NCBI GenBank assembly: GCA_943704415.1
Contig: CALSCO010001308.1
Coordinates: forward strand, 1 to 21,362
Source: Parvularia atlantis
Lineage: Eukaryota > Opisthokonta > Rotosphaerida
DNA length: 21,362 nucleotides
Reading direction: 5' to 3'
Below, in pieces: positions 30-20,323 of this stretch. A program made the translations under genes and the position numbers. Within the stretch, counting starts at the first letter, position 1. Each line of letters begins with the position of its first letter. The notes under the pieces are model-generated. The model did not search any database. It was given only the letters and a program-made list of their open reading frames with translations, and was not told the origin of the DNA.

Positions 30-1180
30 GTCGTCGCTCGATGCATGCATGCCTTGGGCGTTTCGGGCGGCATCTCGGGCGCGACGTCGAGCAGCATGCT
101 GTGTGCCACATCAGTCGCACGGCAGCGCGCTTGCACGACGCGGCGCGCACCGCTCCATGCTCTCGATCTCCTCCTGGCCCGTAAGGAACACGAGAATGTC
201 GCCCGGCACGGGCTCGTCGCGGTGCAGCTGCAGCACCGTCACGAGCGCCGAGTCCATGTACTCGGGCTGCGTGCGCGTCGCCGGCACGGTCAGAGAGGGC
301 GCACGTGCTGTGCGCGCACGCGTCCACCTTGGCCTCCTCCATGAAGTACTGCTGCACGGGGAACTGCCGCCCGGCGACATAGATGACCGGCGCGCTGTCG
401 TCGCGCCCGCGATCAAGACGCACGCGTGGCTGACGCCGTGCACGCACTCGTTGAAAAACTTGGAGAACTTGTCCGCGTCGAGCGTCGCCGACATGACGAT
501 GATCTTGAGCGGATTGGCCGTCGCGGCGCGGCGCACCTGGATCTGCTTGACGATGCCAAAAAGCACGTCCGTGCGCACTGTGCGCTCGTGCGCCTCGTCC
601 AGGATCACGACGGCGTAGCGCAGAAGCAGCTCGTCCGACAGCAGCTCGCGCAGGAGCATGCCGTCCGTGAGGTACTTGATGCGCGTCGCGGCCGAGCTCA
701 CGTCGTCGAAGCGGATTGTGTACCCGACCTTGCGCGCGCGCGTGCCCAGCGGCTCGTCACGCACATGCGGCGGCGGCAGCGGCACCCCGCACCAGCTGCC
801 CGAGCGGCGTCCCGGTCTCGTCGGCCACGCGCTTGGCGAGGGTGATCGCGGCGACGCGGCGCGGCTGCGTGATGGCGATCGCGCCGAGCCCAGCCTCGTG
901 CAGCAGCTGCGGGATCTCTGCGCGGTTGCCACGGCCGCGTCAGCCGCTGCACGGGGCGAGGCACGGCACGGGCGCGCACGCGTCGTCTTGCCCGACCCGG
1001 TCGTCGACGTGATGATCGTCGTCGGGCTCTGGCGGATGCGCGCGACAATCTTGGCACCGGCTGCACGATCGTGCGCATGATCAGCAGGCCGCTGCACGAT
1101 GAGCAGGGCGGACGCGCACCTTGGAAGACCGGCAGCTGCTGCCGCTGTCGAAGCAGCTGCGCCGCCGACGTCGCGGGCAT
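1..1180 (-). CDS. DHX33: DHX33/Dhr2-type DEAH-box RNA helicase, C-terminus beyond window
   Basis: ATP-dependent RNA helicase of the DHX33/Dhr2 group, known in ribosome biogenesis in the nucleolus. About 259 residues are visible in seven exons: 1180-1120, 1060-980, 917-793, 728-448, 394-328, 266-151 and 98-53. All phases agree. Motifs in order: LPVFQAG near residue 20, motif I TGSGKTTQIPQ (split by an intron), ITQPRRVAA (Ia), [32 protein letters not shown] (II), IVMSATLDA (III), [14 protein letters not shown] and [13 protein letters not shown] (IV). The RFDD and GRQFPVQQY stretches resemble DHX33 more than Prp22 or Prp43. The start ATG at 1180 gives a very short N-terminus, which is normal for this group. 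Motif I reads STTGSGKT where family members usually have GETGSGKT. The helicase C-terminal half lies off the left edge. The last visible exon ends AAG followed by GC, a possible GC donor at position 52. Confidence 0.86.
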
Positions 1181-1208: not shown

Positions 1209-2592
1209 ATGTCGGGAAGCACCGAGGACGCGGCGCGGCGCTTCTTCGCGGCCGCGACGGCGCCCGCCGACCTCACGGTCAAGCGCGCGGCGATGCAGCA
1301 GTTTGTGCAGACGCAGCTGCGGCGGCGGCGCGGCGTCGTGCTCGTGACGGTGCGCGTGACGCGTGACGTGTGCAGATGCTGACGGCAGATGCTGACGGCA
1401 ACGCGCCTAGTCGGGCGGCACAACCGTCCCGCTCGAGCGCGCCACCGTGCGCTTCATCGACAACTTCAGCGTCGGCACGCGCGGCGCCATCTCGGCCGAG
1501 TGCGATGGCCGGCCGCCGCACCTGCGATGTGCTGATCGCGCGCCACGACAGGCACTTTATCCAGCTCGGCTACGCCGTCGTCTTCCTGCACCGCCAGTAC
1601 AGCCTCCAGCCGTACCACCGGCACTTTAGCCACGCCGAGCGCGGCCTGCTCGACCACCTCATGCTGGACGAGCGAAGCCAGCGCGTGTCGGGTGGCGTCG
1701 CGCCCGCGTCGTTCTGGAGCGGCATGCTGACCGTTGTCGCCCAGTGCTCCCGCGCGACCGCGAGGACATCGCCGCCGTGCTCAAGCAGTACGAGGCCGTC
1801 GTCAAGGACCAGGCGCTGCTGCCCGTGACCTTTGTCACCGTCTCTGAGTACCTCTTCCTCCTGCGCGACGCAGCAATGGTGCGCACGTTGAGCTCGCCCG
1901 TCTCGACCTGACGCCCGCGGCGCAGGCCATGCGCCCGCTCGGCCCCGCCGCCGTGCTTTACCTCGCTGCAGCCGTGTCGGACTTTTACCTGCCCGAGGAC
2001 AAGATGGTGCGCGCTCCGTGCCGCGCCGCATCGCGCGCATCTCACGCGGCACGCGCAGTCGGAGCACAAGATCCAGAGCGGCGACGGCGGCCTGCGGCTC
2101 GACCTGGACCAGGTGCCCAAGACGCTGCACCTGCTCAAGGCCGCGTGGGCGCCGCAGGCCTACGTCATCTCGTTCAAGGCGCGCATCGCACACTGTCTCT
2201 GCGCGACCTGACGTGCGCGCACGGGTCGCAGCTCGAGACGGACGCGTCGCTCCTGCTGAAAAAGTCGCGCCAGTCGCTCGAGCGCTACAAGCACCAGGTG
2301 CGCGCGCGCACAACACGCGCACACTGCCTCACCGCCCCGGCTCGCAGCTCGTCATCGGCAACATGCTCGCGACGCGCAAGCGCCTCGTCACGCTGTCGCA
2401 CGCCAGCGGCGCGGTCGAGGACATTGTGCTGACGGACGAGGAGGTACGTCGCGCCGCGCGCTGCCACGAGCACTCACAGCCGTCCGCTCCACGCAGCTGC
2501 ACAAGCACCCAGACGCGCACATCGAGGCGCGGCTCATCGCGCGCGTCGTGCAGCTCCACCGCGAGTACACCAAGCAGACCGCAAAGCTGTGA
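1209..2592 (+). CDS. CAB2: Phosphopantothenate-cysteine ligase (PPC synthetase), CoA biosynthesis
   Basis: Joins 4'-phosphopantothenate and cysteine to form 4'-phosphopantothenoylcysteine, the second step from pantothenate to coenzyme A; cytosolic. Nine exons: 1209-1349, 1411-1499, 1552-1691, 1745-1878, 1926-2006, 2059-2178, 2232-2297, 2348-2443, 2497-2592. They sum to 963 nt (320 residues), the usual size. Family signatures: [11 protein letters not shown] near residue 46, [18 protein letters not shown] (nucleotide binding), [27 protein letters not shown], then VISFK joined to [22 protein letters not shown], and a C-terminal [12 protein letters not shown]. The start at 1209 is the first ATG in the open frame. 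Intron 6 (2179-2231) begins with GC: no GT donor of the right phase exists there, it contains an in-frame stop, and the SFK|LETD junction is conserved. The stop lies 17 bp from the stop of the convergent CHIP-type gene. Confidence 0.93.
1350..1410 (+). other. CAB2 intron 1 with duplicated branch-site region
   Basis: A 61-nt GT-AG intron ending in TAG. It carries a perfect 13-bp tandem duplication (1374-1386 and 1387-1399), each copy holding GCTGAC, the branch-site motif used throughout the window. Each copy is also preceded by a potential GCAG acceptor. The acceptor at 1410 is the one that joins VLVT to SGGTTVPLE in frame. Confidence 0.8.
2179..2231 (+). other. GC-AG intron (CAB2 intron 6)
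   Basis: 53 nt, donor AAG|GCGCGC, acceptor TCGCAG, with CTGAC inside. Reading through shifts the frame and meets a stop. Every GT inside leaves the wrong phase. The joined protein matches the conserved FKLETD segment of PPC synthetases. Confidence 0.88.
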
Positions 2593-2609
2593 CGTGACGG
2601 ACGCACATA
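2593..2609. other. 17-bp convergent gap CAB2/CHIP-type gene
   Basis: Only 17 bp separate the TGA of CAB2 (2590-2592) from the TGA of the minus-strand U-box gene (2610-2612). There is no room for two 3' untranslated regions, so each polyadenylation site must lie inside or beyond the neighbour's coding sequence, giving sense-antisense overlap. Confidence 0.85.
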
Positions 2610-3853
2610 TCAGACATGGTTCGCTGCCCAGCCGTTCCTGCAGGCGGGTCAGCAAACACCGCACGCGCGTGACACCTGCACCGACGCACTTGTCCAAAAA
2701 GTCGTCGATCGCGCTCTTGAGCGCGAGGTTCGAAATGAGCTGCGCCTCGGTCAGCCGCGCGCGCGTGATCGGGTCAAAGTGCCCGACGCGGTGCAGGTGC
2801 TCGAGGATCGACGCGCGCTCATACCTGCGCACGGGGCCTCAAAAACGTCGAGCGGGCGCGTGAGACCGCGGCGCTCGCGCACGCACGTGATGCCGCTCGG
2901 CGCGATGACCGGATCGCGCATTAGCTCAAAGTCGATGTTGCCCAGCAGGTACTCGGGCACCTCGCGCCGCTGCGCCGCGTCAGTGCCATCGGTAACGGAT
3001 CAAGGCGCACTGACCTTGACGTCGTCGGCGGCGTTCACAAACAGCTGGCGCAGCCCCGATAACCTCTCGTCGGCCGCGCGGCCGACCTCCTGCCGCTGCG
3101 CCTCGTCCGCCGCGGCCGCGAGCTTGCTGTGCGCGACGTGGGCACGGCACGCACGACCGTCACGCGCAAGCGCACGCACCGCTTCCGGTCCTCCTCGACC
3201 AGCGTCGTGAGGTAGCGCTGCAGGTCGTTCGTGCGCCCGAGCCGCTCGTCCTCGTCGCGCTCCCATTTCTGCCGCGACCGCCGTCGTCAGCGACGTGAGC
3301 ACGAGGCGTGCCGATCGCACCATGCGGCGCGCGCGCAGGATCTGCTTGTTGATGTCCTCGGCGTAGTTGTCCGGCTGCTGGTGCGAGAGCGCGAACGCTG
3401 CGCACGGCGTGCGTGAGGCCGTGCCGTCTGCCCGGGGACGAGGACGCGCACCGCGGCGCAGCGCCTCGAGCGCGTCGTCGAAGCGGCCCTGCTCCAGCAG
3501 GCCGACGCCGCGCAGGTACAGCGCCTTGACGGACGCCGGGTCGAGCGCGAGCGCGGCGTCGGCGTCGGCCACGGCGGGCGCCCACTGCTGCAGCCGCAGA
3601 TGGCACAGGGCGCGGTTGACGAGGTGCACGGGCGCGGCAGGGCTCGCTTGCTGCGCGCGCGCATCTGCTCAGCGGCGCGTCCGCATCCGCCGCGCCGCAT
3701 CGCACACGCACCACCGCCTTGCTGTACTCGCCCAGTGCCTCGTCGTACCGGCACGCCGCGAAGCTCGCGTTGCCGCGCGCGCGGTGCGCCTCGCCTGCAA
3801 ACGGCCGCCGGGATCAGCGATGACGTAGGGTGACAGCCGCGCGCACCGGCCAT
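2610..3853 (-). CDS. STUB1: CHIP/STUB1-type TPR and U-box E3 ubiquitin ligase
   Basis: Co-chaperone ubiquitin ligase: the TPR domain docks on the C-terminal EEVD of Hsp70/Hsp90 and the U-box recruits E2 to mark clients. Nine exons (3853-3847, 3794-3712, 3650-3452, 3397-3321, 3268-3180, 3126-3015, 2969-2887, 2824-2690, 2637-2610) give 813 nt, 270 residues, slightly shorter than animal CHIP (303). Three TPRs cover about residues 3-110 ([51 protein letters not shown]). The clamp residues GN, NRAL and VKA are present, with R where CHIP has its first clamp lysine. A charged helical hairpin follows, then the U-box ([36 protein letters not shown]) and a C-terminal NGWAANHV that fits the family ending. 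The first coding exon is only 7 nt (ATGGCCG). All eight introns are GT-AG. Confidence 0.9.
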
Positions 3854-3896
3854 GACCGCGGCGTGGCTGAAAGACAGCAAAGACGGATGTGCATCA
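3854..3896. promoter_or_regulatory. 43-bp divergent gap CHIP-type gene/HAD hydrolase
   Basis: The minus ATG at 3853 and a plus in-frame ATG at 3852 share the palindrome CATG, so the two possible start codons overlap. I prefer the plus start at 3897 because the HAD fold begins four codons later, which leaves a 43-bp gap. No TATA-like element is visible. Confidence 0.5.
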
Positions 3897-5036
3897 ATGG
3901 TCAGCGGGACGTACAAGGCGGTCGTCTTCGACATCGGCGGCGTGGTCGTTGCGTTCGCCTCTCGCTCGCCTCGCTGCGCGCTCGCTGGTGACGCGCCGCC
4001 GTGCAGGTCGGCTCGCCGCTCGAGGGCATCCGCGATTACGAGCGCGCGCACGGCATCCCGGATGACTACGTCAACATCGTCATGTGCACGGACGCATGCG
4101 ACGCGCGATGCTCCGGGCCCTGATCGCGCGCGCAGCGTGCGCTACGGCCAACGCGGCGCGTTCCAGCGGCTCGAACGCGGCGAGCTGTCGCTGGACGAGT
4201 TCTACAAGGCGCGCCGCAGCTCCGACGTGCGACGGCCGCGGGTGACGCGCGCGCGCGCATCGCAGGCGTTCGAGGCAGAGCTCAACGACCCGGCCAACTA
4301 CGCGCTGTACGAGGAGTACCTCGCCTCGCGCGGCCGGCGTGCGTCGTCGGCGCGGATCGCATCGCCGCGCGGCTGATTGGAGAGAGACGACGGTAGCCGT
4401 GCCCGCGCGCCCGCCGCGCATCGCCATCAACGCCGTCGAGCTGTTTGGGCAGATGATGGCCAAGGTCGCCACGCCCAATGCGCACATGCTCGAGGCCATC
4501 CGGCGCCTGCGCGGTGCGCGGTTGTGCTCTTGCGGCCGCGCTCATCGCTTACGAGACACGCGCAGCGCGTGGCTTTGTCGTCGCCGCGCTCACCAACAAC
4601 TTCCAGGCTCGCACTGCAACCGCCTTTTGCTCGCCACACGAGGGGCTGATCGCGCGCGGCCGCAGGTCGCCGACGGCTCGCTGCCCTCGACCAAGGAGAC
4701 CGACATCCCCGCACTGTTTGACCACTTCATCGAGTCGTCCGTCGAGGGCCTGCGCAAGCCCGACCCGGCCTTCTTCGAGCTCGCGCTGAGGCGGCTGGGC
4801 CTGCCCGCGTCGCAGTGCATCTTCCTGGACGACCTCGGCATGTGCGTGCCGCGGTGCACGCGGCGATGTAGCTTTGCTTACTCGCTGCCGCCGCCGCCCG
4901 CCACCGCAGCAACCTTAAGACGGCCAAGCAGCTCGGCTTCACGACAATCCGCGTTGGGCTGTTTAAGAACGACGAGGCGCTGCAGGCGCTCGAGCGCCTC
5001 GTCGGCTTCGAGCTGTATGCGCGCGCGCGCTTGTAG
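3897..5036 (+). CDS. HAD-superfamily hydrolase (ACAD10/epoxide-hydrolase-N-like)
   Basis: Haloacid-dehalogenase-type hydrolase; substrate unknown. Eight exons (3897-3947, 4007-4083, 4136-4208, 4266-4338, 4397-4513, 4566-4606, 4666-4841, 4910-5036) sum to 735 nt, 244 residues, typical of the family. Motif I is VFDIGGVVV with nucleophile Asp12. The acid/base Asp at +2 is Gly, as in ACAD10-type domains. A helical cap follows (GAFQRLERGELSLDEFYK, residues about 50-70). Motif II is VVAALTNN, motif III is GLRKPDPAFFELAL (Lys) and motif IV is CIFLDDLG. The conserved NLKTAKQLGFTTIRV lies near the C-terminus. Introns 3 (4209-4265) and 6 (4607-4665) start with GC. The second is forced, because no GT lies in its 5' half and read-through shifts the frame. 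An upstream in-frame ATG at 3852 would add 15 residues. Confidence 0.86.
4209..4265 (+). other. Probable GC-AG intron (HAD intron 3)
   Basis: 57 nt, donor AAG|GCGCGC, identical over nine bases to the CAB2 GC donor. A GT donor exists at 4227 but would make a 39-nt intron and add six residues between FYK and AFEAEL. The length is a multiple of three and stop-free, so retention is possible. Supported by length and alignment, not forced. Confidence 0.65.
4607..4665 (+). other. GC-AG intron (HAD intron 6)
   Basis: 59 nt, donor CAG|GCTCGC, acceptor CCGCAG, with GGCTGAT inside. There is no GT before the branch region and read-through changes frame. The join ALTNNFQ|VADGSLPSTKE restores the conserved HAD frame. 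Confidence 0.88.
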
Positions 5037-5065
5037 TTGCACTCTGCACTGCACCGGCGCGCTCG
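5037..5065. other. 29-bp convergent gap HAD hydrolase/SLH1
   Basis: Only 29 bp lie between the TAG of the HAD gene (5034-5036) and the TAG of SLH1 (5066-5068, minus). The 3' ends of the two transcripts must overlap. Confidence 0.85.
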
Positions 5066-8000
5066 CTAGGTCGCCAGCACCGCAAAGTCTAGCTGCTGGT
5101 CCAGGCCCATGTAGACGTCCGAGATGAGCAGCAGCGCGTAGCGGTACGGCGAGGCCGACGCTGGCGGGGCTTCGATCGCCAGCGTCACCGTCGAGGCGTC
5201 GAGCAGCTGGCGCGTGACCACGGTCAGCTGCCGCGTGCCACCCATCGCTGCCGCCGCACCGTCACGCGCTTGAGCGCCCGCATCTCGCCCGCACCCACGT
5301 CCGCGCACACGAGCCACCAACCCTCATCCTGCGGTTTGGGGAAGTGCGGCGCGTGCGCCTTGTGGCCGTGCTGTGGGCGCCGCGTCGTCAGCACCGCGCG
5401 TGAGACCAGCAGCACACCCGGCGCACCCGGCGCGTCAGCCCCGAGCGCCGCAGCGACCGCCGCTTGAGGTCGATCACGAGGTCGTAGCGCGCGCCGGCAC
5501 GCAGTGCCACGGCCAGCGTCTCGGACGGATCAAGGCCTAGCTTACCGGAGGACGGCGACTGCTCATCCTCGTCCGCGCTCTCGACCGCAAACGACATCTC
5601 CGTGATCGGCAGCTGCGCCACCACGGCGGCAGCCTGCGACGCAGTCAGCGTCGGCAGCGACGACTAGCCAGCGTCTGTGCGCACCACTCGCGCCGCGTCA
5701 CGCGACACGGCCCGCGACAGCACGCGCGCAACCTCGTCCTCGCTCATCGCCAGCAGCTCCGGCAGCACCTGCACCGGCGCGCGATCAGCACGCGGCAGCC
5801 ATACAGCGCTTGCGGTCGCACTGGCAGCTCGCTTAGCCGCGGGTTGCCCGGCTCGATGCCCGGCAGCGTCGTGAGCGGCGAGTCGTCGGGGAAGCGCGCC
5901 TGCTTGAGGCTCTGTACGAGCGTCATCGTCTGCAGGCACGTGGCCGTTAGGCCCTTCTCCGCCGCGACGTCGACCATGGCCTGCGCGGAGCGCGTGAGCC
6001 GCCGACAGCCCAGCGCTGTAGCTGATCGACAGCGTGCCTGCAGAATGCGCACGGCGCTGTCCAGCACCGTCTTGAGGTCGGTGTAGTAGTCGGAGATGGG
6101 CAGGGCGGCTCGGGCAAAGTGCGCCTGCAGCAGCAGGTTCGTCTTGACGTGCGGCGACCCAGCGTCGTACACGTCAATCTGCCGCCACCCCGTCAGCGGC
6201 ACGGCATTGGCCGCGCGGCAGCAAGGGCGCGCCTTCCACGGCAGCGACTGCGACAGCTCTGCGTTGAGCATGTCCTCGTTGTGCCGCACGGGCAGCTCGT
6301 CAAACTCGCGCGCGTCGCACAGCAGCTGCCCGGACGCACACAAGTCAAGCGCCATCGGTACGTGCGCCGTCGGTACGTGCGCGCACCTCGTGCACGGCCT
6401 GCACCGTCATCGCACTCGTGAGCGAGCGGTGGAACAGGCCCACGGTCTCGTGCGAGAGGTAGTAGTACGACGCGACCAGGCCGAGCGTGGTCGTGTGCAC
6501 GGCAAAGTCGTCGCCCTCGATCACTGCCCGCCGCGCGCACAGTCAGCCCGACAGCCGAGCCCGCACCGGGGCCTCAGCGGCGCACGGATGCAGCCCGAGC
6601 GCTGCAGTGCGCGCAGCGTGTCCTCAATCAGTTGCGACAAGTGCTGGCTCACGCCTGGTGTGCGCGCGTGGTGAGGTCGCGGCTGCATCCACGCGCAGGT
6701 CGCACCGTCGGGCGTCACGTCTTCGACGTTGTAGTACGACGGGTTGACCATGACGCGGCGGTAGTAGTACGTCCACGTGAGGTAGTCAATCGCGTCTTGC
6801 TTTGTGGCGATTGTGCCACCGGCGATCTGCACGCGCCGCGTTGAAACGGGTGTGCGCCAGGCACGGCGCGCACCTCCGCGTTGAGGTGGTTGTGCAGAAA
6901 CATGTGCAGCGACGACTCAACCGGGAAGGGCTCGTACAGAAACTTCTTGTAAAAGTCCTTCTTCTCGTCCTGTACGTAGATCACCGCCACGCCCTTTGTG
7001 TCATACTGCGGGCGGCCTGCGCCCCGCCGCTACGTCTTAGCGGCAGTGCGACCACCAGCGGCCCCGCTCGATGCACCCGCGCGGCCCATCATCTGCAGCA
7101 CGTCCGTGATCGGCATGTCGACGTAGCGGTGCGTCTTGGCGTCGAAGAACTCGGTGCCCTTGATGATGACCAGGTGCGTGGGCGTGTTGACACCCCACGC
7201 CAGCGTCGACGTCGCCACGAGCACCTGGCGCGCGTGCACAGTGTCAGCGCGGTGCACAGCAGAGACGTCAAGCGACCTGGATTTTGCGGTTCGCAAACAG
7301 CTCCTCGACGATCTTGCGGTCTGTGTAGCGGCCGCAGGAAGCAGTTACCCGCACCCGCCGCGCCCCTTGCGCCACACGCACCCGACTCGACGAGGCCGGC
7401 GTGGTGCAGCCCGATGCCAAAACCGAGGCTGAATTTGAGATTGCTGGCGCGCGCAAGAGGGGTCAGCACGGGGACGGCTCAGCCACGTGCACGGCTTCCG
7501 CACCTGTCGGTCGCCCGCGAGAGCACCTGCTCGAGCTCGTCGTCGGTCATGCCGAGGAACTGCGCGCAACCGTGAGCACCGGACCCGCCGCTGCACCAAG
7601 CGCGCGCACACCTGGCGCGGGTTCTCCTCCTGCGCGCACAGGCTGATCAGGTCCTGCGCGGTCAGGCGCGTCTGCCGCCGGCTTGAGACGAACACTGTGC
7701 CCCGGGCGGCGCGTCACAACGGCCCGGACCACAACAAAGGCGCGCGCTGGCACGAACCGATCACGGGCTTGTTGGGCGAGTACTCGCGGATCTCGGAGAA
7801 GGCGGGCTTGTTCATCGTGGCCATGCGCGGGCAAAAGTGCTTGCCCGAGAAGCCGCTGCGGTCCTGCATCGTCAGCCCGGCGCTGCGCACAAAGACCGCG
7901 ACGCACCGCACATGGACCTCGAGCGGCACGGGGCGCACGGACGGGCGGAAGTTGTACAGGCCGACCTAGAAACGGCGAGCGATTGAGCCGCTGCAGACGC

Positions 8001-11000
8001 GCGGTGCCGCGAGGCGCGCACCTCCTTGATGCCGAGCCAGTCGGCCACATCGCGCGCGTTTGCCAGCGCGGTCGACAAGCCCACGAGGCGGATCTTGCTG
8101 TCGGTGTGCGCCGAGATGTAGCTGCGCGGCAGGGTCAGCGTAGGCACGCGCGGAGTCGTGTGGGGTCTGACGCACTTCATGCGCGACACGATGACCTCAA
8201 GCGTCGGGCCGCGGTCCTGCCCGAGCAGGTGGATCTCGTCGATCACCACCTGCGCACGCGTCCGTGTCAGCCGGCCGCTCTCTGCACTGGCGCCGTCTCA
8301 CGCGCGCACCAGCGACACCGCCTTGACGTAGTTGCGCGTCTGCCACGAGCGCGAGACGGCGTCCCACTTCTCCGGCGTGGTGATGATGATGTCGGAGCTG
8401 CAATACGCGGCTGAGCGAGCGCTGTCGCAAATGCGGCGCGGGGTCGGGCGCACCGCTCGATCGTACGCATGTCGGGCGTGACGTCGCCCGTGAGCTCGAC
8501 CAGGCGCTTGCCCGTGACGCGCACGAGGTCGCCCGACCACTCGTTCACGCGCTCGCGCACGAGCGCCTTGAGTGGCGCGATGTAGACGACCTGCGCGTGT
8601 GTCGTCAGCGCCGCAGCCTTGTGTGCCCTGTGCGAGCGTGCCTTGGATGACGGGTACTCGCGGAACGCGCGCCACATGGCGATCTCGGCAGCGATCGTCT
8701 TGCCTGTCGCGCGCACGGTCAGCGCGGCTAGCAGGCGAGACAGAAGCGCGCGCACCGGAGCCGGTGGGCGCGCCGAGCAGCACGTTGTGGTCGGTGTGGT
8801 ACAGCGCGTGGAAGATCTGCGTCTGCGGGCGGCACGGGTGAGCGTCGCGCCTGCAGCAACGCCAGGTGCACGCACACCTGGATCGGGTTAAAGTGCGTGA
8901 AACCGTACAGCGCCTCGATCTTGGGGTCCTGCAGCGCCGTCACGGGCAGCGGCTGCAGGTCCAGCAGCTCGGTGTGCTGCGCCCTGGGCGTCAGCGCAGG
9001 CGCACAGCACGCGCAACGAGCCCACGTGCCGGCGGGTGCCGGTCCGGAAGGATCAGGTGCCGGAACGACAGCGCGATCACCGTCTCGGCGCTGAGCCAGC
9101 GATCGGACACGGCGCGCACGTGGTACTGCGGCGGCAGCGGCTCGAAGATGGGGATGTTGAACACGAGCACATGCGGCTCGCGCTGCGGCGGCCCCGGGCG
9201 TGAGCGTGCATCAGCTTCGTCCCCGCCCGCTCACGCACGTGCTGTTTCTTGTGCAGGAGAAAGTACTCGGTGTGGTAAAAGTGCTCGTTGTTCGCGTCCT
9301 CGACCCAGATCCACCAGGGCTCGACCGAGCCGTGGATGCGCTCGTTCCAGTCAAAGTCGGCCGTGATCGTGAGCTGTACGCGCAGGACGGACCTGAGGCG
9401 GCCGCGACCGCTCAGGCTGCGCGTCTTGCTGCGCCAAGCGTGTGCACACCGCGTGATCGGCTGCACCGTCGCGTCGAGCTGCAGCAGCGGGAACTGGTGC
9501 ACGTAGCTCTTGACGACCTTTCCGAGGCGGTGGTGGTGGATGAGGTCGCCTGCACCGCGTCGCGCATCAGTCGGGCACGCCGCGGTCGTTCGAAGGCGCG
9601 CGCGCGTGCCGATCTCCAACGCGTCCATGTCGCGCATGCGGTCGAGGCTCGTGTTGGCCCGGTTCAGCTTCGTGATGACCTCAAACTCGATCATCGGCAG
9701 CTGCGCGAGCGGGTGCTCGAACGACCTGAGCCGGCAAGTCAGCGTGGGCGTTCGGCTCGGCGCGCAGTTCGCGCGCACCACTGCCGCCTGTCGATCGTCT
9801 TGCACAGGTTGAGCAGGCGCGACGCGACAGTGACCCACGACTTGCGCAAGGCCTGGCGTCCGAGCAGGTCAGCCCCCACGCGCGCGGTCGGCACAGCGCG
9901 CACCATCTCAAACATCGCTCGCATGATGCGCGACGCGTTCTGCACGACGTAGGCTGAGTCGGACACGAGGCTGAAGTCGTCCAGCACGCCGCGCGAGATG
10001 TACGTCTGCAGGAGGATGTTGACCTTGCCGTACGCATTCTCCGTGCCGCCCTGCGAGAAATGACGCTATGAGCCCGCAGACCGCGTCGCACGGTGCGCGC
10101 ACCTTGACCGGGCACACGGTCTGCTCTTGCAGCAAGCGCTCGAGCTCGGGCTGCTCCTCGTCGCGAACCTTGATGTTCTCAAACTCGGACGACTGCGACA
10201 CGAGCGCGAGCAAGTCCGGCTCGGTCATGGTCGATGCAAACTGCTCGTTGAACAGCTCGACCGTCAGGTACCGGATGTAGAAGTGCGACGCGATGCGCCC
10301 GAGGTCCGTCGGCGCGAGCGAGCTGGGCGGCAGTCCCGCGTCAGCAACCCTACGCTGTGCCGCGGCAGACGTGCACACCCGGAGCGCTCGTTGTAGCGGA
10401 TCATTTTGGCCTTGTCGAGCTGCAGCGCGCATTGGTGCACGAGCTCGCGCCTGTTTGACCGCGTGTCAGCCGCCGAGGTGCCCGCGCGCACGTGTGCACG
10501 CGCACCGCTTCAGGTGCAAGCCGGGGTCGCGCTCAATGTCCTCGTAGCTGAGGCCGTAGAAGAGCGCGTTCTTCTTCATGCGCACGTGCAGGTACGTGTA
10601 GCTCATCCACTCGATCGCCTGGGGCGCGCGCCGGGTCGGTGGGCGGGCGCGGCTACGCACGCACCACAGCGCGCACCTCGTCCACCGTGCTCACCGTGCC
10701 GAGCACGACCTCGGCGTTGAGGTTGTCGGTGAGCATCTTGATGAATTGCGACTCGATCGGCGTCTGCGATGTGACCTGGTTGAGGTAGTGCGTGAGCTGT
10801 GTGCCGCATGCGCGTGCGAGGTCAGTGCGGCTGCGGATCAGTCGGTGGGCAGGCGCGAGCCTTGTCGTGCGTCGTGACGATGATGCCCTCGCCGGACGTG
10901 TCAAACTGCGGCCGGCCCGCGCGGCCAAAGATCTGCATCACGTCGAGAATGCCCAGGTCGACGAAGGCTGGCGGGGCGTGCTCAGCGTGAACGCGGGGCA

Positions 11001-14000
11001 GACACGGCGGCCGGGCGCGCACCGCCCTTCTCGGCGTTGTACAGCTGCGTGCCCTTGATGATCACAGTGTGCGCCGGCAGGTTGACACCCCACGCGAGCG
11101 TGGCCGTGCAGCAGAGCACGCGGATCATGCCGTCGCTGAACACCTGGGCGTGCGGGCGTGCCGTCAGGTCGTGCCCGCCTGCCACCCGCGGTGCTGCGAC
11201 GCGCCTTCTCGACCAGGTTGCGGTCGGCGCGCAGCATGCCTGCGTTGTGGCAGCCAAAGCCGCTTGCAAACAGCTCCTGCGCCAGCGTGAGCGGCGACGG
11301 CGCGTACATGCCCGCGCCGGCGCACCCGCAGCTCGCGGTTCTTGGACTTGCCCACCTGGTTCTGCGCCGTGATCCAGCGCGGGTTGTTGGCGTCCGGCTT
11401 GAACAGGTCCGTCAGGCCCTTCTTGCTGGCCATGTCGCGAAGTACCTGCGACGTCTTGACCGTGTCCTTGCGCGAGTGCACAAAGACCATGACCTGGTGC
11501 CCCTGTCGCAGGCTTGATCGCGGACGCCTTATTTCAGCCGCTGACGGCAGACGCAACGAGTAGCACGGCAGCCGCACCGGTCGACGATCTTGTCAAAGCA
11601 GATCTCGTTCATCACCTGCACCTGCCGCATCACGCCCTTCGGCTTCACGCCGATGAACTGCTGCGACAGTGGCACAGGGCGGAAGCCGTTGTCAAAGTAG
11701 AACAGGCCGACCTGGCACGCGCAGCGATAGGCCTCAGCAACCCTACTCTTCCCTCGCGATGTGCGCACCATCGGGTTGACGCGCAGGAACTGAGCCACGT
11801 CGATGTAGTTGGGCAGCGTCGCCGACAGACCGACGATGCGGATCATCGACTGCGTCGACTCGACCTGCCCGCGCGACACCGTCAGCCAGCAAGCATGCGG
11901 CGGCGTGCACACACCTGGCGCAGCGTGCGCGCGATGAGCGTCTCAATCACAGGGCCGCGGTCGTCGTGCAGCAGGTGGACCTCGTCGATGATGAGCAGGC
12001 GCACCTGGAGCACGGCCGTCAGCGCGCAGCGCGGCGTCACTCGCCCGTCCGCCGCGGCACCTGCTGCGCCAGGCCCACGTCGCCCGTGTTCTTGCGCGTG
12101 ACGACGTCCCACTTCTCGGGCGTGGTCACGATCACCTGCGTCGCTTGGATCTCGGCCTTGGTCATCTGCATGTCGCCTGCGAGCACGGCTCAGCCAAGCA
12201 CAGGGGCAAACGCGCGAGCCGCGCACCCGTGAGCTCGGCCACAGTGACGCCGAGGTAGCTGAGGCGGCCCGAGAACTTGCGCACGACCTGCGGCGCGGCC
12301 AACGTCAGCGCAGGACAGAGACGCAACCGGAAGCTTGCCTCGGCCGCGAGCGCCTTCATCGGCGCGACGTAGATGATCTTGAACTGCGACAGGTCGTACT
12401 TGCCGCGGACGACGTGCTGCGCGCCCTGCTGTGAGCGTGGCCGGGCCATGCTGCGGCGTGCACGCACGTTCTTCATCTCGTGCAGGATCGTCATCATCGC
12501 CACGTCCGTCTTGCCGGCGCCCGTGGGCGCGCACACGAGCATGTTCTCGTTCGTGTTGTACGCCACGTTGAACACGATCGACTGTAGCCGGTTGAGCGAC
12601 TTGTACCCGGCGAAGGCTGCATGTGCGCGCGTTGATGAGCGTGCACTGCGGCGCACACCCCAGCACGGCGCACCCTGCCGCGCAAACTCGTCAAACATCG
12701 TGATCTCCACCGGCTCCTCCATGTCCATGCGCGCGGCCGGCTGCCGGGCGCTGCGTGAGACGCAAAACACGGCGCGGGCGCGGCACGAGCGCACCTTGGA
12801 CACGGGGATCGAAACCTCCTCAAAGTCTTTGTCGTCGCGGCGCGTTGTGCCGGCGGGCAGTGCCAGCTTCTGGCCGTTCCAGTTGATCTGCGCCGGCTGC
12901 GACGTCGTGTAGACCTGCAGCGCGCGTGTGGGCGGCACGGCGACCCCTCGCGCAATGCGCGCACGTTCGGGTAGACGATTGCGGGCGCCGTGACGCGGTC
13001 GGACGAGAACAGCGGCGCGTGCGCGGCGTCCTCGAGTTGCCGGCGGCGCGTGTCGAGCAGGTCGATCGTGTCGAAGCCGAGCGCCGCCGCCAGCGCGGTC
13101 TGGTCGTCGGCCGAGATGGCTGCGGGGCGCGTGCGGCGTCAGCGTGCGAGGAGCGCAGGACGGGAGGCGCACACGCACCGCCGCCCTTTTTGGACGCGCG
13201 CTTCTCCTCCTTGCGCACGAGCTTGGCCAGGCGCTTCTCGGCCTCGGTTTGGATCGTCACCTGCGGACCCACGGCCGGCGCACGGCGTCCTGATGCGACC
13301 ACGCGCTCTCAGCCGGCACTGTGAGGCCACATGCGCGCAGCGCACACACCCTTGGCCGTGTCATGCGACTTGTCGACGGCCGTGCCCGAGACGTGCGCGA
13401 TCGTGCGCAGGGCCTCCTGGACGGCGGCAACGATCTGTCGCAAGCAGTGAGCGCTGGTGTGCCATACAGCCACGCCGCACCTCGCTCCGCTTCTCGAGCA
13501 GGCGCTGCACCGTCTCAATTGAGTCGTAGCCGACCATGTCGAACAGCTCCGACTGGATGTCTGGCGTTGAGCGGTTCGACCTGGCAATGCAAGGAGCATG
13601 AGCACAGGCAGTACACACGGCACAGAGCGCACCGCAGCATGTCGAACACGGTCATCGACAGGTCCTCGGCCGAGATTCCCTCGGCGCCCTGGAGCACGTT
13701 GCGCAGGAAGAATCGGTCGATCGGTGCGTCGAGCGCGCTCTTCGGCTTGGCGTCGTCCTTCGTGGCCCTCGGCTCGCCTGCGCCTGGCTCAGACACGGCG
13801 ATGAGGGGAGAGGGTGCACGCGCACGCGGCGCACCCTCGACGGCCTTGCCCTTGCCGCGCCCGTCCGCCGCAGACGCCAGGCGGGTCGACGGGTCCGGGA
13901 AGAGGGTCGGGCCGAAGAATGCAGCGGCCTCGCGCGTGTCGTGCTTTGTGCGCGGTGCGGCGGTGAGCGCGGCTCAGACAGTGCCCACGCACACGCGTCG

Positions 14001-14721
14001 CCGCACCAGGATCTGGTCGCGCGCATGCATCGGGTCCACAAACGCGAGGTCGGCGCCAAACTCTTGGGGCCGCGGGAATCGGTCTGGCGCGCAACGTGTT
14101 AGATTGGCCGACGAGCCGTTTCGCGCGCCGCACCGTTGAACGACTTGGACGCGAGCACGATGCTGACCTCGCGCGCGATGTCGCGCAGGTCGGCAAAGTC
14201 GCGCTGCTCGATCACGCCGCAGACCGACATCAGCTCCTCGCGCGCCTCGCGCTCGTCGACTGCTTCGGCGCCGAGCACACGCAACACGGCGAGCGTCGCG
14301 CTGTGGAAGGCGTCGCCCGAGAGCTCGTCGCCGACGACGCGACGCATGCGGGCGACCAACTGCCGATTGCCGCCGCGCCGTCAGTCGAGGCCGCGGGCCT
14401 ACGAGGGGAAACGCGATCGCGCCTTGCGGTACGCATCGTGCTCTTCGCGCTTGTCCGACGCGTCCAGCAGCGCGACGCGCGCCCACTGCGTCGCCTCCTC
14501 CCTGTGCGCGCGGTGATTGCGCGGGCGGCATTCAGCATGCGCATCGGCATCAGGCGCTTGCGCAACTCGTCGAGCCCGCTCGCGACGGCGCGCATCTGCT
14601 CGCGGCGCTCGGCCGTCTGCTTGAGCAGCAGGAACATGCGCGCCGCGCCCGCCACGGCCCCGTCCGACGTCCGCGCCGCGCGCAGCGCGCCGGTTAAGCG
14701 TGGCGCATCGAGCACGGTCAT
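5066..14721 (-). CDS. SLH1: SLH1/ASCC3: Ski2-like two-cassette helicase of the RQT/ASC-1 complex
   Basis: ATP-dependent helicase that splits collided ribosomes in ribosome-associated quality control (RQT complex); cytosolic. About 58 exons give 6525 nt, 2174 residues (ASCC3 is about 2200). N-terminal PRLTGALR matches ASCC3. [12 protein letters not shown] lies near residue 300. Cassette 1: APTGAGKT (about 510), [35 protein letters not shown] (about 615), [57 protein letters not shown], then a Sec63 domain. Cassette 2: APTGSGKT (about 1358), [25 protein letters not shown] (about 1460), [42 protein letters not shown], then a second Sec63 domain ending [27 protein letters not shown] and [12 protein letters not shown] favour SLH1/ASCC3 over BRR2. 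Both ATPase sites look intact. Confidence 0.93.
10797..10860 (-). other. GC-AG intron (SLH1 intron 23)
   Basis: 64 nt, donor AAG|GCTCGC, two branch-like motifs (ACTGAT and ACTGAC), acceptor ACACAG. There is no GT at all before the branch region. It joins VTTHDK to [18 protein letters not shown], which is invariant in the family. Confidence 0.9.
11144..11204 (-). other. GC-AG intron (SLH1 intron 21)
   Basis: 61 nt, donor AAG|GCGCGT, with CCTGAC before the acceptor. It joins NLVEK to [19 protein letters not shown]. All internal GT dinucleotides near the donor give the wrong phase, so GC use is forced by the frame. Confidence 0.88.
14360..14422 (-). other. GC-AG intron (SLH1 intron 2)
   Basis: 63 nt, donor AAG|GCGCGA, with ACTGAC before the acceptor. 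The length is a multiple of three but read-through meets an in-frame TAG. Internal GT donors leave the wrong phase. It joins DAYRK to [15 protein letters not shown]. Confidence 0.82.
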
Positions 14722-14765
14722 GATTCGAGTGTCGACTGCGTGGGTGAAAGTGCCGTTTTGACGGC
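14722..14765. promoter_or_regulatory. 44-bp divergent gap SLH1/MRN1
   Basis: Separates the ATG of SLH1 (14721, minus) from the ATG of the RRM gene (14766, plus). It holds a GTCGAC palindrome and a short T run, but no recognised promoter element. Both starts are well supported: PRLTGALR follows the SLH1 start at once, and the RRM gene has no earlier in-frame ATG in this gap. Confidence 0.6.
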
Positions 14766-15149
14766 ATGGCGGAGGCGCAGAGACGGCGCCGCGCCGCCGA
14801 CAGCGACGAGGGCGACGCGGGCGACGAGGGCGACGTCTACGACGCGGCGGACGCGGACGTGGCGGTGACGAGGAAGGCGGACGAGGAGGATGAGGGACGT
14901 CCGGGGAAGCGGCAGCGTGTGGAGGAGGAGGAGGAGGAGGAGGAGGAGGAGGAGGGCGACGATGACGGGGTGAACGACGAGGGCGCCGTGCGCGTGACGG
15001 TGGGCGAGATGGAGCCGCGGCTGGACGAGGACGAGGTGGAGCCGACCGACGGCGGGTTCGTGCATGACGACGACCACCTCGCGGAGCAGCCGGCCGTGGG
15101 CGAGAAGGACGCGGAGCACAATGAGCATCACGAGGATCACGAGGAGCAA

Positions 15150-15205
<56 letters not shown>

Positions 15206-18200
15206 CGCGCCGCACGACCGCCAGCCGCGCTCGCTGCACGAGATGGAGGTGCACGACGACGGTGAGGAGGACAACTACGACGGCGAGGGCGACGATAGCG
15301 AAGCCGACGACATTGGCGACGGCGAGGGCGAGGGCGAGGGCGCTGAGGGCGATGAGGCGGCAGCAAAAGGTGGCGCGCCCAAGACGGCGGGCCCGGCCGA
15401 GACGGAGGGCGCAGCGGACGCCGAGGGCGCAGCGGCGCCGACGACCGACGCGGACAAGGCGCAGGGCGAGGCGGCCACGGGCGACGACAGCGCGAACGGC
15501 AAGGCCGAGGGCGAGGGCGAGGCGGCGGCCGGGACAGCGACGGCGGCGACGCGCAAGCGCGGTGTGCGCGGCGGGCGCAAGACGCGCGACAGCGGCCTGC
15601 CGCGCGTGGTGTACTTTGGCAACCTGGACGAGTCAACGACGCTGGCGCACGTCATGGAGGCCGTCTACGGCGGGCTGATCGAGTCGTGCCGGCTGTCTCC
15701 CCAGCAGCACTGCGCGTTTGTGACGTTTGTGCACGCCCTGGACGCGCGGCGGTATGTCGAGATGATCCTGCACACGGGCGTGACGATCAACAACAAGCCG
15801 GCCAAGATCGGGTGGGGCCGCAACCCGCACGTCGACCCCAAAGTGCAGCGTGCGATCCAGCAGGGCAGCACGCGCTCAGTATTCGTGGGCTCAATCACGT
15901 CCGAGATGACCGAGGTGCTGCGACTGCGCCGCGTCGTTGACATTCACTGACGATTGCAACGCGTGCAGGAGTGGTTCCGCAAGGAGCTCTCGCGCTTCGG
16001 CGTGATTGAGAAGGTGCGCTTCCTGCCCGAGAAGCCGATTGCGTTTGTGCACTTTGCGTCGGTCGCGGCTGCGATGAGCTGCGTCGCCGGTGCGCTGCGC
16101 GTGTGCGGCTGCAGCGCGCAGTGGGTGGGCTGAGTGGCCGTGCGCAGCGCTCAACGAGGATGAGGAGTTTCACAAGAAGCACAAGGTCAACTACGGCAAG
16201 GACCCGTGCAACCGGCCCCCGCCCCGCAACGCCATCCCGCGCTTCTCTCAGACGATGATGCCGAGCGGCGGCGGCAGCGGCGGTGGCGGCGGGCGCGGCG
16301 GCGGCGGAATGATGCACGGCGGCGGCGGCATGATGCACGGCGGCATGGGCATGGGCATGGGCATGGGCGGCATGAACATGGGCATGAACATGGGCGGCGG
16401 CATGGGCAAGGGCCAGGGCGGCCCGTCGCGCACGGTGTACCTGGGCAATCTCGACCCGGCGACGACGTACGACGAGCTGTGCGCGCACATCCGTGGCGGC
16501 GCGCTCGAGAACATCAAGGTGCGTCGCGCGTGCGCGGCCGCGCGTGATGCGGCTCACGACGGTCGCGCCCGGGCAGATCATCCCGGAAAAGTCGTACGCG
16601 TTTGCGTCGTTTGTGACGGAGGAGGGCGCGTCAATCTTCTTCGAGTACGCGTCCGAGAACCCGCTCATGATCCGCGGCCGCACGGTCAAGGCACGTGCAA
16701 CGCGTGGTCGCCTGTGTGCACTGCCGTCGATGACATGGCGCGCGCATAGCTGGGCTGGGGCAAGAACTCGCCCATCCCGAGCGACGTCGCGCAGGCGATC
16801 CATCAGCACCGGGCGACGCGCAACGTGTACATCGGCAACGTACGACGCGCGCCCGGATGCGCCGTCGTGCTTGCCTCTCATGCCGCGCGCCGGGCACAGA
16901 TCGACGAGGGCCTGACCGAGTCGCGTCTGCAGAACGACTTTGGCGAGTACGGCACGATCGAGCGCATCCAGGTCGTCAGCGACCGCCAGTGCGCCTTTGT
17001 CGAGTTCACGTCGATCGCGTCGGCCATGCGCGCGGTGCAGGCCGCCCCGACCAAGTCGCCCTATTCCAGCTACCGCGTCAACTACGGCAAGGACTCGTGC
17101 GCGCAGCAGCCCAAGAACTTTGTGCGCAAGATCCACTCGATGGGCGGGCGCGGCGGCATGCTGCAGCCGCAGCTCGGCGGCGGACGCGCGCTCCTGCCCC
17201 CGCCCAACGCCGTCGTCAACTTGCAGCCGCGCGCGCCGTCGCTCTTGGGTGAGATGCCGACGGGCCCGTACCTCGGCATGCCGCGTGGCGGGAGCCTCCT
17301 GCCGATGCTGGGCCAGCAGCGCCAGGAGTACCTTCTGCCGCCGCCGCCTGGTGGCCAGCAGATGGGCGGGTACGGGCCAGGGCCCGACTACGGCAGCGAC
17401 CGCGGCGGGCGCGGGGGCGGCACGCGGCAGCCGTACGGCGACTACGGCAGGAGACCTGAGCCGCAGCGCGGCTACGACGGCGACGGCGACGACATGGGTG
17501 GGCGCTACGACCCGTACGACCGCGGCTACGGCCAGGGCGGACGCTCGGGCCCGCCGCCGCGCCGCGATCAGTCGGGCTACGACGAGCCGTACGACCGCGA
17601 CATGCGCAGGGAGCAGCGGCCCCACCCGCAGCAGCCCAGCTACGGCCAGCAGGCGCCCCCGCAGCAGTACGCGCATGCGCCGGGCTACGGCCAGCCCGTG
17701 TACGGCCAGCAGGCGCCTCCGCAGTCGCAGCCGGGCTACGCACAGCCGGCTTACGGGCAGCCACAGCAGCCGGCGTACGCGCAGCCGCAGCCTCAGCCGG
17801 CGTATGCGCAGCCGCAACCGGGCTACCCGCAGCCGGGCTATGCGCAGCCGGGCTACCCGCAGCCGTATGGGCAGCAGCCGGCGTACGCGCAGCCGCAACC
17901 AACGCAGCTACAGCCGGCGTACGGGCAGCCGCAGCCCTACGGTGTCGCCGTGCCGCAACCGGCAGTGGCGCAGCCGGTGGCGCAGCCCAACCCGTACTAC
18001 CCGCAAGCCACCGCCGCCGCCCAGGCTGTGGCACCCGGCGCTGCCGCGTTGCAGGCCGCGCAGCAGCAGCAGGCGACGGTGTACGCGGCCGCGTACGCGC
18101 AGGCGTTTGCGGTGCGTGCCCGTGCGCTCGTGTGGCATCGGCGCAGCTGACACGTGCTGGCGCTGTGCAGGCGGCGATGAACCAGTACATGGGCCAGCAG

Positions 18201-18533
18201 ACGTACGGCGCGGCGGGTGCGGCACCGACGGCCGCCTCAGGCATGCCGGCCGCCGCGCCAGCCGCAGCAACACCAGCGTACGGCACCGACGTGCAGGCGC
18301 AGCAGCAGGCGCGATCTGCTGAATGCCGCCGGTCGAGACCCAGCGTGCTGACGCGCTCGCCGCAGGCCGCCTACGCCGCCATGTACTACAGCGGCAAGTA
18401 CACGCAGGAGCAGCTGCAGCAGATGTACGCCGCCTACACGACCGCGGCCGCGACGGCCGCTGCGCCGGCTGCGGGCGCCAAGGTACAGCGGGGCAATGCC
18501 GCGGGTGGCGGAGGTGGTGGCAAGCGCAAGTGA
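14766..18533 (+). CDS. MRN1: MRN1/nrd1-like mRNA-binding protein: four RRMs with acidic polyQ and Tyr/Gln-rich tails
   Basis: Post-transcriptional regulator of the yeast Mrn1 / fission-yeast nrd1 (msa2) family; binds mRNA, cytoplasmic. Eight exons (14766-15914, 15969-16089, 16148-16518, 16577-16690, 16750-16839, 16900-18111, 18171-18308, 18366-18533) sum to 3363 nt, 1120 residues, about twice fission-yeast nrd1. RRMs: about 280-352 (VVYFGNL, KIGWGRN), 368-445 ([17 protein letters not shown]), 517-595 (TVYLGNL, LGWGKN), 608-690 ([17 protein letters not shown]). The alternating GWGK and NYGKD ends are the family hallmark. An acidic N-terminus carries E11 and Q19 runs, a Gly/Met linker joins RRM2 to RRM3, and a C-terminus of about 430 residues is rich in Gly, Arg, Tyr, Gln and Pro. 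Intron 4 (16691-16749) is GC-AG and forced by frame; intron 7 (18309-18365) is a probable GC-AG. Confidence 0.9.
14922..14954 (+). repeat. Pure GAG run, poly-glutamate E11
   Basis: Eleven uninterrupted GAG codons (residues 53-63) in the acidic N-terminal tail of the RRM protein. A perfect trinucleotide tract, so likely length-variable between strains. Confidence 0.95.
15147..15203 (+). repeat. CAG/CAA run, poly-glutamine Q19
   Basis: Nineteen Gln codons (residues 128-146): one CAA, seven CAG, one CAA, ten CAG. It follows a His/Glu/Asp-rich stretch and precedes RAPHDR. PolyQ of this kind is common in low-complexity tails of RNA-binding proteins. Confidence 0.95.
16257..16424 (+). repeat. Gly/Met/His-rich linker between RRM2 and RRM3
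   Basis: Encodes a run of GGGSGGGGG, two GMMHGG units, then MGMG and MNMG dipeptide repeats (about residues 460-515). It is a coding low-complexity linker, in frame with both flanking RRMs. Confidence 0.9.
16691..16749 (+). other. GC-AG intron (MRN1 intron 4)
   Basis: 59 nt, donor AAG|GCACGT, acceptor GCATAG. It joins RGRTVK to LGWGKNS, the conserved end of RRM3. None of the internal GT dinucleotides is in phase 0, so GC use is forced. Confidence 0.9.
17437..17950 (+). repeat. Imperfect GYGQ / QPGY / QPAYAQ repeat tract
   Basis: Encodes degenerate short repeats of Tyr, Gln, Pro, Gly and Ala (units such as [10 protein letters not shown] and QPAYAQPQ), preceded by an Arg/Gly/Tyr/Asp-rich segment. 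Composition is like prion-like domains that drive RNP condensates. Repeat units about 15-24 bp long recur in the DNA. Confidence 0.85.
18309..18365 (+). other. Probable GC-AG intron, in-frame if retained (MRN1 intron 7)
   Basis: 57 nt, donor CAG|GCGCGA, GTGCTGAC before the acceptor CCGCAG. It has no stop and is a multiple of three. Splicing gives [16 protein letters not shown], which fits the Ala/Gln/Tyr composition. Retention adds 19 basic residues unlike their surroundings. Confidence 0.65.
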
Positions 18534-20064: not shown

Positions 20065-20291
20065 CCGCTGAGACCGAGACAAAGTGTGTGCTCGCTGCTC
20101 TTGTCGTGTGCCCTGTCGTCTGTCTTGCGATGCTCGCTGGGCTTGTCGTCTGCCCTGTCGTCTGTCTTGCGATGCTCGCTGGGCTTGTCGTGTGCCTTGT
20201 CGTCTGTCTTGCGATGCTCGCTGGGCTTGTCGCCTGCCCTGTCGCCTGTCTTGCGATGTTCGCTGGGCTTGTCGCCTCTACGCCCTGATCG

Positions 20292-20323
<32 letters not shown>

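Follow-up and report, generated by a model that had tools for sequence, protein, structure and literature searches.

Excess of putative U2-type GC-AG introns across a genomic window of very high G+C content from a probable fungus-like lineage

Introduction

Do some of the introns on contig CALSCO010001308.1 really begin with GC instead of GT, and what could keep so many of them there? This stretch of 21,362 bases, analysed as a whole and called the window below, has a G+C content of 69.4% (73% in its introns) and carries intron-dense genes, one of which, an SLH1/ASCC3-type helicase gene, was given 57 introns. A sequence-only reading had reported 97 introns, about 15 of them starting with GC, and had proposed that recognition of the 5' splice site is relaxed or re-tuned in this organism. 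In fungi, the mean share of GC-AG introns is 1.009% over 130 species (PMC7072748). Judged from the DNA sequence, the excess of GC-AG introns in the window is confirmed as real, with firm calls at 12 sites and ambiguous calls at three (14557, 4209 and 18309).

Results

GC-AG introns in the window

Introns were called with a gene finder combining a coding model, donor and acceptor weights, a branch motif and intron length, with GC as an allowed donor. The list of sites from the sequence-only reading was not used, and the donor and branch weights were set after these sites had been viewed. A retrained codon model shifted some borders off homology, and the untrained model was kept. In a run practically restricted to GT and GC donors, 102 introns were called, 17 of which start with GC (the 15 listed previously, 1683 and 17713), i.e. 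a share of 17/102 when nothing is dropped. Seven calls were removed before counting: 1683 in CAB2 (GC), because of GT alternatives nearby, and six in MRN1 (17713 with GC; 17328, 17802, 17883, 18217 and 18483 with GT), because of the repetitive sequence. There remained 95 introns, 80 with GT and 15 with GC, so that the GC share is 15.8% (interval 9.8-24.4%; P = 6e-14 against the fungal mean of 1.009%). With the firm sites only, it is still 12.6% (12/95; 7.4-20.8%; P = 3e-10). The GC donors retained are the same 15 that the sequence-only reading had listed, all of them being GC in the sequence and all of these introns ending in an AG acceptor and holding a branch-like motif; its count of GC introns thus stands, whereas its total of 97 becomes 95. 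The GC share does not differ between SLH1 (10/57) and the other genes (5/38; P = 0.77). A first-draft SLH1 model contained the ten listed GC donors of this gene and one spurious donor at its open 3' end (5106).

When a single donor dinucleotide was allowed beside GT (prior 0.1), the likelihood gain was 122 nats for GC, 33 for CG, 25 for TC and 23 for CA, the remaining dinucleotides gaining less. The number of introns chosen was 18 for GC and 18 for CG; it is therefore the likelihood gain, not this number, that discriminates GC from CG.

We also aligned SLH1 with human ASCC3, giving equal weight to the 16 donor dinucleotides and requiring an AG acceptor. This donor-neutral alignment yielded 44 introns (34 GT, 9 GC and 1 GA), of which 42 are identical to the base with those of the gene model, including 8 GC donors (8/44 = 18.2%; 9.5-32.0%). 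The two off-model calls, 10096 (GC) and 9232 (GA), are 6-nt slips inside GT introns of the model. Donor counts were unchanged with an intron penalty of 8 and with lengths of 30-200, and a penalty of 20 gave 33/9/1 of 43. Donor-neutral alignments of the DEAH helicase, CHIP, CAB2 (with PPCS), HAD and TTL genes added 19 GT introns and 1 GC intron recovered exactly, and 10 off-model calls, five of them in HAD. For the six genes pooled, 62 of the 74 calls (53 GT and 9 GC) coincide with the model to the base. Outside this count, CAB2 aligned with the yeast protein gave 3 exact GT introns and 2 off-model GC calls.

Individual GC donors

For 12 of the GC sites, the neighbouring introns were fixed and every GT..AG, GC..AG or other..AG intron, as well as retention, was scored against a homologue. 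The GC donor was the best of all donors at 10 of the 12 sites (eight in SLH1, 2179 and 16691), with a margin over the next candidate of any kind from 1 (6232) and 2 (12338) up to 11 (10860, 11204 and 9029), and of 14-46 over the best GT. When non-GT donors were disallowed around the 15 sites, one site at a time, the cost was 3.3-17.5 nats, the weakest sites being 4209, 6037, 14557 and 18309. The eight SLH1 sites are all on the minus strand and all found by the ASCC3 alignment: 12288..12338 (gag/GCAAGC), 11144..11204 (aag/GCGCGT), 10797..10860 (aag/GCTCGC), 9550..9609 (tcg/GCACGC; its omission costs 17.5 nats), 8977..9029 (ccg/GCACGT), 8591..8641 (aag/GCACGC), 6179..6232 (aag/GCGCGC; 31 points above any GT) and 5981..6037 (cag/GCACGC). 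On the plus strand, the CAB2 intron 2179..2231 (aag/GCGCGC) is exact in the donor-neutral PPCS alignment. In MRN1, the plus-strand intron 16691..16749 (aag/GCACGT), in the third RRM, was scored against the gene's own first RRM, and its retention leads to a frameshift and a stop.

Two further sites are firm on the reading frame. For the HAD intron 4607..4665 (plus strand, cag/GCTCGC), the best GT model loses 10 residues at a cost of 13.0 nats; its homologue score (130) exceeds that of any GT (112) but not that of another placement (145), and the EPHX2 alignment missed it. Retention of the SLH1 intron 14360..14422 (minus strand, aag/GCGCGA), where there is no homologue, brings in an in-frame TAG; banning non-GT donors within 60 nt pushed the model to a 135-nt intron, itself with a GC donor, at a cost of 12.9 nats. 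Among the three ambiguous candidates, 4209..4265 in HAD (plus strand, aag/GCGCGC) is 57 nt long, readable in frame and not recovered with EPHX2; the GT alternative at 4227 (GTGCGA, leaving a 39-nt intron) costs only 3.3 nats, and the homologue score is slightly higher for a GT alternative (47 vs. 45). The candidate 14502..14557 at the SLH1 N-terminus (minus strand, caa/GCGCCT) has a weak donor and no homologue; a GT alternative at 14566 costs 6.1 nats, and the retrained model shifted the donor to 14542, likewise GC. At the C-terminus of MRN1, 18309..18365 (plus strand, cag/GCGCGA) can be read in frame and lies in low-complexity surroundings (cost 6.8 nats).

At least six of the GC sites had been described as forced in the absence of any in-phase GT. 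This wording goes too far, as in-phase GTs occur 15 nt upstream of 2179, 9 nt upstream of 11204, 18 nt upstream of 10860 and 6 nt upstream of 16691. These GTs are nevertheless disfavoured, because their use would delete conserved residues. In addition, a good GT donor (GTGCGC) is found at 6052 on the minus strand, 15 nt upstream of 6037. Its use would delete 5 conserved residues, at a cost of only 4.2 nats, and 6052 and 6037 could possibly form a pair of alternative 5' splice sites.

Donor motif and pairing with U1

The GC donors differ from the GT donors at positions flanking the dinucleotide. The exon ends in AG (positions -2 and -1) at 12/15 GC donors and 20/80 GT donors (P = 9e-5), a difference that persists in phase 0 alone (12/13 vs. 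18/43; P = 0.0014), and A is found at +3 in 6/15 GC and 3/80 GT donors (P = 4e-4). Both enrichments hold for the firm sites (10/12, P = 2e-4; 6/12, P = 9e-5), and +3A also distinguishes the donors of the donor-neutral SLH1 block (5/8 GC vs. 0/36 GT; P = 5e-5). Duplexes with canonical U1 have an energy of -3.07 kcal/mol for the real GC donors vs. -1.87 kcal/mol for GT donors mutated to GC (P = 0.009). As the GC donors are enriched for U1-pairing bases at -2 and +3, C at +2 seemingly remains costly.

Both classes of introns share most other features. The donors carry G at +5 (14/15 GC, 71/80 GT), the introns end in CAG (14/15 GC, 71/80 GT), and mean lengths are 57.0 (GC) and 55.8 (GT), with an overall standard deviation (SD) of 4.9. 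The branch motif CTNAY is present in 12/15 GC and 58/80 GT introns, and its form CTGAC in 9/15 and 27/80, respectively (P = 0.08). No U12 signal (ATCC at +3 to +6) was seen in any of the 95 donors, and U12-type introns were therefore rejected. With a GC start and an AG end, stronger U1-pairing flanks and a U2-type branch point, the 15 introns would thus be GC-AG introns of the U2 type.

The common motif differs from the usual GTAAGT: G occupies +3 in 73/80 GT donors, and C occupies +4 in 69/80 GT and 14/15 GC donors (83/95 in all). Otherwise, +4 is A in 2/80 and G in 3/80 GT donors, and A in 3/95 donors overall. Canonical U1 offers no base pair to a C at this position. In the GT donors, +4C departs from the intron background (P = 5e-20), and this preference is left unexplained by intron composition. 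Avoidance of pseudo-donors in coding sequence failed as independent evidence. Compared with synonymous-codon shuffles of DEAH, CAB2, CHIP, HAD and SLH1, GTGCG (26 vs. 15.3) and GCRCGY (73 vs. 50.7) were commoner and CTGAC was rarer (7 vs. 11.9); the shuffle ignores neighbour effects, and nothing was drawn from these counts.

Search for introner signatures

GC donors can be part of a transposon-like family of repeated introns, the introner elements (IEs). In Micromonas pusilla, GC donors make up 25.6% of donors overall, 43.5% in introner-containing introns and 9.7% in regular ones (PMC4815162), and introner families range from 0 to 50% GC donors (PMC9860276). The extreme intron density of the window (57 introns in one gene) and its tight intron lengths would fit such an origin. 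However, across the 95 introns there is little conservation outside the splice signals, and neither terminal inverted repeats (end complementarity of 5.08, as in a null taking ends from other introns, 5.08) nor target-site duplications (junction repeats of 1.97 vs. 1.98) rise above the null level. Comparison of the 95 introns revealed no repeat family: mean pair similarity was not raised over four dinucleotide shuffles (GC-GC 8.66 vs. 7.95-8.67; GT-GT 8.31 vs. 8.35-8.46), and best-pair scores were slightly above them (GC-GC 18 vs. 13-15; GT-GT 22 vs. 18-20). A mononucleotide-shuffle null had given an excess (9.23 vs. 7.8); once the shuffles preserved dinucleotides and the branch points were masked, the mean excess vanished. 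An introner origin is therefore supported neither by intron ends and junctions nor by positional conservation or pairwise similarity, and we consider it very unlikely. With end complementarity at the null level, the pairing of intron ends that marks nonconventional introns of the euglenid kind is also lacking.

Gene content of the window

A DEAH helicase gene (112..1180, minus strand, 5 GT introns) is cut at the window end (1-150), where its frame enters poly-C sequence without the remainder of the helicase. It is followed by CAB2, encoding a phosphopantothenate-cysteine ligase (1293..2592, plus strand, 8 introns, the donor of 1683-1744 being uncertain), which matches yeast CAB2 and human PPCS; its N-terminal part scores 251 with the former (49/76 identical) and 184 with the latter (39/62). 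In the CAB2 intron 1350-1410, the 13-mer GCAGATGCTGACG is present in 2.2 tandem copies (1372-1400), which duplicates the branch-point motif CTGAC. Then come a CHIP-type TPR and U-box gene (2647..3853, minus strand), with 7 GT introns of which 4 were recovered exactly by donor-neutral alignment, and a HAD hydrolase gene of the EPHX2 N-domain type (3897..5036, plus strand, 7 introns). The SLH1/ASCC3-type gene (5066..14721, minus strand) codes for a double-cassette helicase with matches to ASCC3 and Slh1; its product shows the Pfam domains Sec63, DEAD and SNRNP200_wHTH, each in two stretches, and the first-draft model, of 2,126 residues, already had both helicase cassettes.

The multi-RRM gene of the MRN1/Nrd1 type (14766..18533, plus strand; RRM_1 match) was called with 13 introns, of which 7 were kept. 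Among solved structures, its best match is 2rt3 (Negative regulator of differentiation 1; E = 7e-20, the next at 5e-10), which we take to be fission yeast Nrd1; the name MRN1 follows the sequence-only reading. A TPR gene starts at 20064, and a TTLL-type tubulin ligase gene (TTLL6/7-like polyglutamylase; 20276..21279, minus strand), possibly incomplete, was called with 5 GT introns, 2 of which were recovered exactly by donor-neutral alignment. Between the start of the former and the end of the latter lies a 42-bp minisatellite of 4.4 copies with 93% match (20089-20274).

This gene content is fungus-like. A fungal origin is likely, in view of the Nrd1 relationship of the multi-RRM gene and of CAB2, whose alignment with the yeast protein extends further and scores better than that with PPCS at similar identity. 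The lineage may be an early-diverging, flagellated one, as suggested by the presence of the TTLL and CHIP genes. The SLH1 product scores higher with human ASCC3 (1061 bits) than with yeast Slh1 (947 bits), which speaks against a close kinship with yeasts. In searches for relatives of the window, a viral scan found none and a genome scan returned only archaeal- or bacterial-labelled records. No RNA families or tRNAs, and no small nuclear RNA (snRNA), were found in the window.

Discussion

Reality of the GC-AG introns

The simplest objection to the GC donors is that they are artefacts, the sites being exon that is read through, or nearby GT donors being used instead. In line with this, seven of the 15 GC introns are stop-free multiples of three, as the sequence-only reading had rightly pointed out, vs. 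only 12 of the 80 GT introns (P = 0.010); three sites are ambiguous, and a good GT donor lies close to 6037. Against it stand the donor-neutral ASCC3 alignment and the homology scores at 10 of the 12 sites, which disfavour exon misread as intron, and the likelihood gain for GC, far above that of every decoy dinucleotide, CG included. We therefore regard a wholly artefactual origin as extremely unlikely. The excess of readable introns can be understood in either of two ways. A few of the GC calls may represent retained sequence or errors; alternatively, GC donors may be kept most readily where a failure to splice does little damage. Five of the seven readable GC introns sit in the conserved helicase, where retention would add 17-20 residues.

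Several other points weigh against a reading in which these introns are real and compensated. All counts come from 95 introns in a single 21-kb window, 57 of them from one gene. Ten features were tested, and no correction was applied. The model weights favour A at -2 and G at -1 and give GC a lower prior, so that the gene finder could itself be biased towards compensated GC sites. Within the donor-neutral SLH1 block, the enrichment of exon-end AG is barely significant (6/8 vs. 12/36; P = 0.048) and the difference in U1 energy is not significant (P = 0.22). Phase 0 is over-represented among the GC introns (13/15 vs. 43/80; P = 0.02), an unexplained skew. Moreover, the donor-neutral alignment missed both GC introns of HAD, 7 of the 12 calls in HAD and TTL together were off-model, and when donor and acceptor were both left free the borders slid, with 10/44 introns at GT/GC-AG.

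Origin and maintenance of the GC donors

With these points taken into account, we consider it probable that the window carries real U2-type GC-AG spliceosomal introns, tolerated through compensation, in a very GC-rich, probably early-diverging fungus-like lineage. A T-to-C pressure at donor position +2, through mutation or biased conversion, would keep generating GC donors, and these would persist mainly where the remaining site pairs well with U1, i.e. with an exon-end AG and A at +3, on the assumption that U1 keeps its canonical sequence opposite these bases. The same machinery would then remove GC and GT introns from RNA, both having in common +4C, +5G, a CTGAC-like branch point, their length and the CAG end, and the rest of the genome would be expected to behave alike.

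Base composition alone could be proposed to suffice: a GC-rich mutation or conversion bias would fix the ratio of C to T at +2, with no change of machinery and no weaker selection. We estimated this balance with a selection strength derived from the fungal mean and an assumed C/T of 0.7-0.9 for a typical fungus. Which yardstick is taken as neutral decides the outcome: with four-fold sites (C/T 15.2), a GC share of 14.7-18.2% is expected, close to the 15.8% observed, whereas intron interiors (C/T 2.13) predict only 2.4-3.0%. Relaxed recognition is therefore possible and not required, since the four-fold prediction covers the observed share. Among 61 species, the three most GC-rich genomes hold the three top GC-AG shares (PMC3033335), which also favours composition; outside these top species, however, the correlation with G+C is weak, and Micromonas RCC299 (64.1% G+C) has 1.5-2.7% GC donors vs. 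22-26% in M. pusilla. Composition as the only cause is thus possible, with a chance that we place clearly below even. Nor does recognition seem simply relaxed, as GC donors are enriched for U1-pairing bases at -2 and +3, and any need for a cause beyond composition hangs on the choice of yardstick.

Re-tuned recognition would instead mean that U1, U6 or an associated factor (U1C or Luc7, for example) has been altered in this lineage, by which GYRCGY donors are read and selection on +2 is weakened. The prevalence of +4C, its lack of pairing with canonical U1, the rarity of +4A and the +3G of most GT donors are in its favour, and snRNA changes were raised by Irimia and Roy for the similar GTGCGTG donor of Ostreococcus (PMC2483917). 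On the other hand, canonical U1 can pair with the enriched -2A and +3A, which makes an altered U1 at the facing bases less likely, and no snRNA was found in the window. We find this explanation rather unlikely, and equally doubtful is its extension, in which the lineage would have convergently evolved the splice code of GC-rich picoalgae (GYRCGY, +4C and a CTGAC branch) because its U1, its U6 or a protein partner of U1 was altered. Were it true, about 1/6 of ordinary, non-introner introns would start with GC, and gene finders demanding GT would misannotate the genome throughout. The unusual share from which relaxed or re-tuned recognition had been proposed, roughly 15 times that of an average fungus, is upheld here, and the donor motif does depart from the common one; the status of these features as an anomaly is not supported, high GC-AG shares in GC-rich genomes having been in print since 2011.

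Comparison with known systems

Ordinary fungal GC-AG introns likewise have a GC donor, an AG acceptor and compensating flanks. They differ from those of the window in their frequency, with a mean of 1.009% vs. 15.8% (PMC7072748). In a limited literature search, no fungus with a GC-AG share near 15% was found, and such a report may exist. The closest likenesses are found in algae. GC-AG shares and G+C contents are 39.6% and 69.5% in Aureococcus anophagefferens, 22.2% and 65.9% in M. pusilla CCMP1545, and 2.7% and 64.1% in Micromonas RCC299, and Chlorella reaches 7.7% (PMC3033335); within the window alone, the corresponding values are 15/95 GC-AG introns and 69.4% G+C. M. pusilla further resembles it in its 22-26% GC donors, its donor AG/GTGCGT and its branch NCTGAC (PMC3033335, PMC3879977, PMC4815162); in IE-A1 introners, 53% of donors are GC (PMC3879977). 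It is, however, a green alga in which 79% of the GC donors reportedly lie in D-IE1-containing introns and in which introns are about 180 nt long, whereas the introns of the window measure 56-57 nt and lack introner signs. Aureococcus is also an alga with introners (PMC9860276), and its share is higher. Emiliania huxleyi, a haptophyte alga, is likened by its very high share of GC donors alone (50%, as cited in PMC4815162). Ostreococcus lucimarinus has the same +3G, +4C and +5G in its donor GTGCGTG, and an ACTGAC branch (PMC2483917); it is an alga that is intron-poor outside one chromosome region, whereas the window is intron-dense.

Implications

Gene predictors that demand GT would miss or break about 1/7 of the introns if the pattern of the window holds genome-wide. 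The case of M. pusilla illustrates this, since GC donors amount to 5.9% in earlier gene models and 25.6% in RNA-supported ones (PMC4815162). The excess of GC-AG introns reported here is of a kind known from GC-rich algae; its novelty rests on the probable host and on the absence of introner marks. If it extends to the whole genome, another lineage, probably fungal, would join the few with a large fraction of GC donors, with introners apparently not the cause. The question of whether base composition or a changed spliceosome underlies such fractions would then become testable, through U1, U6 and the comparison of donors among close species.

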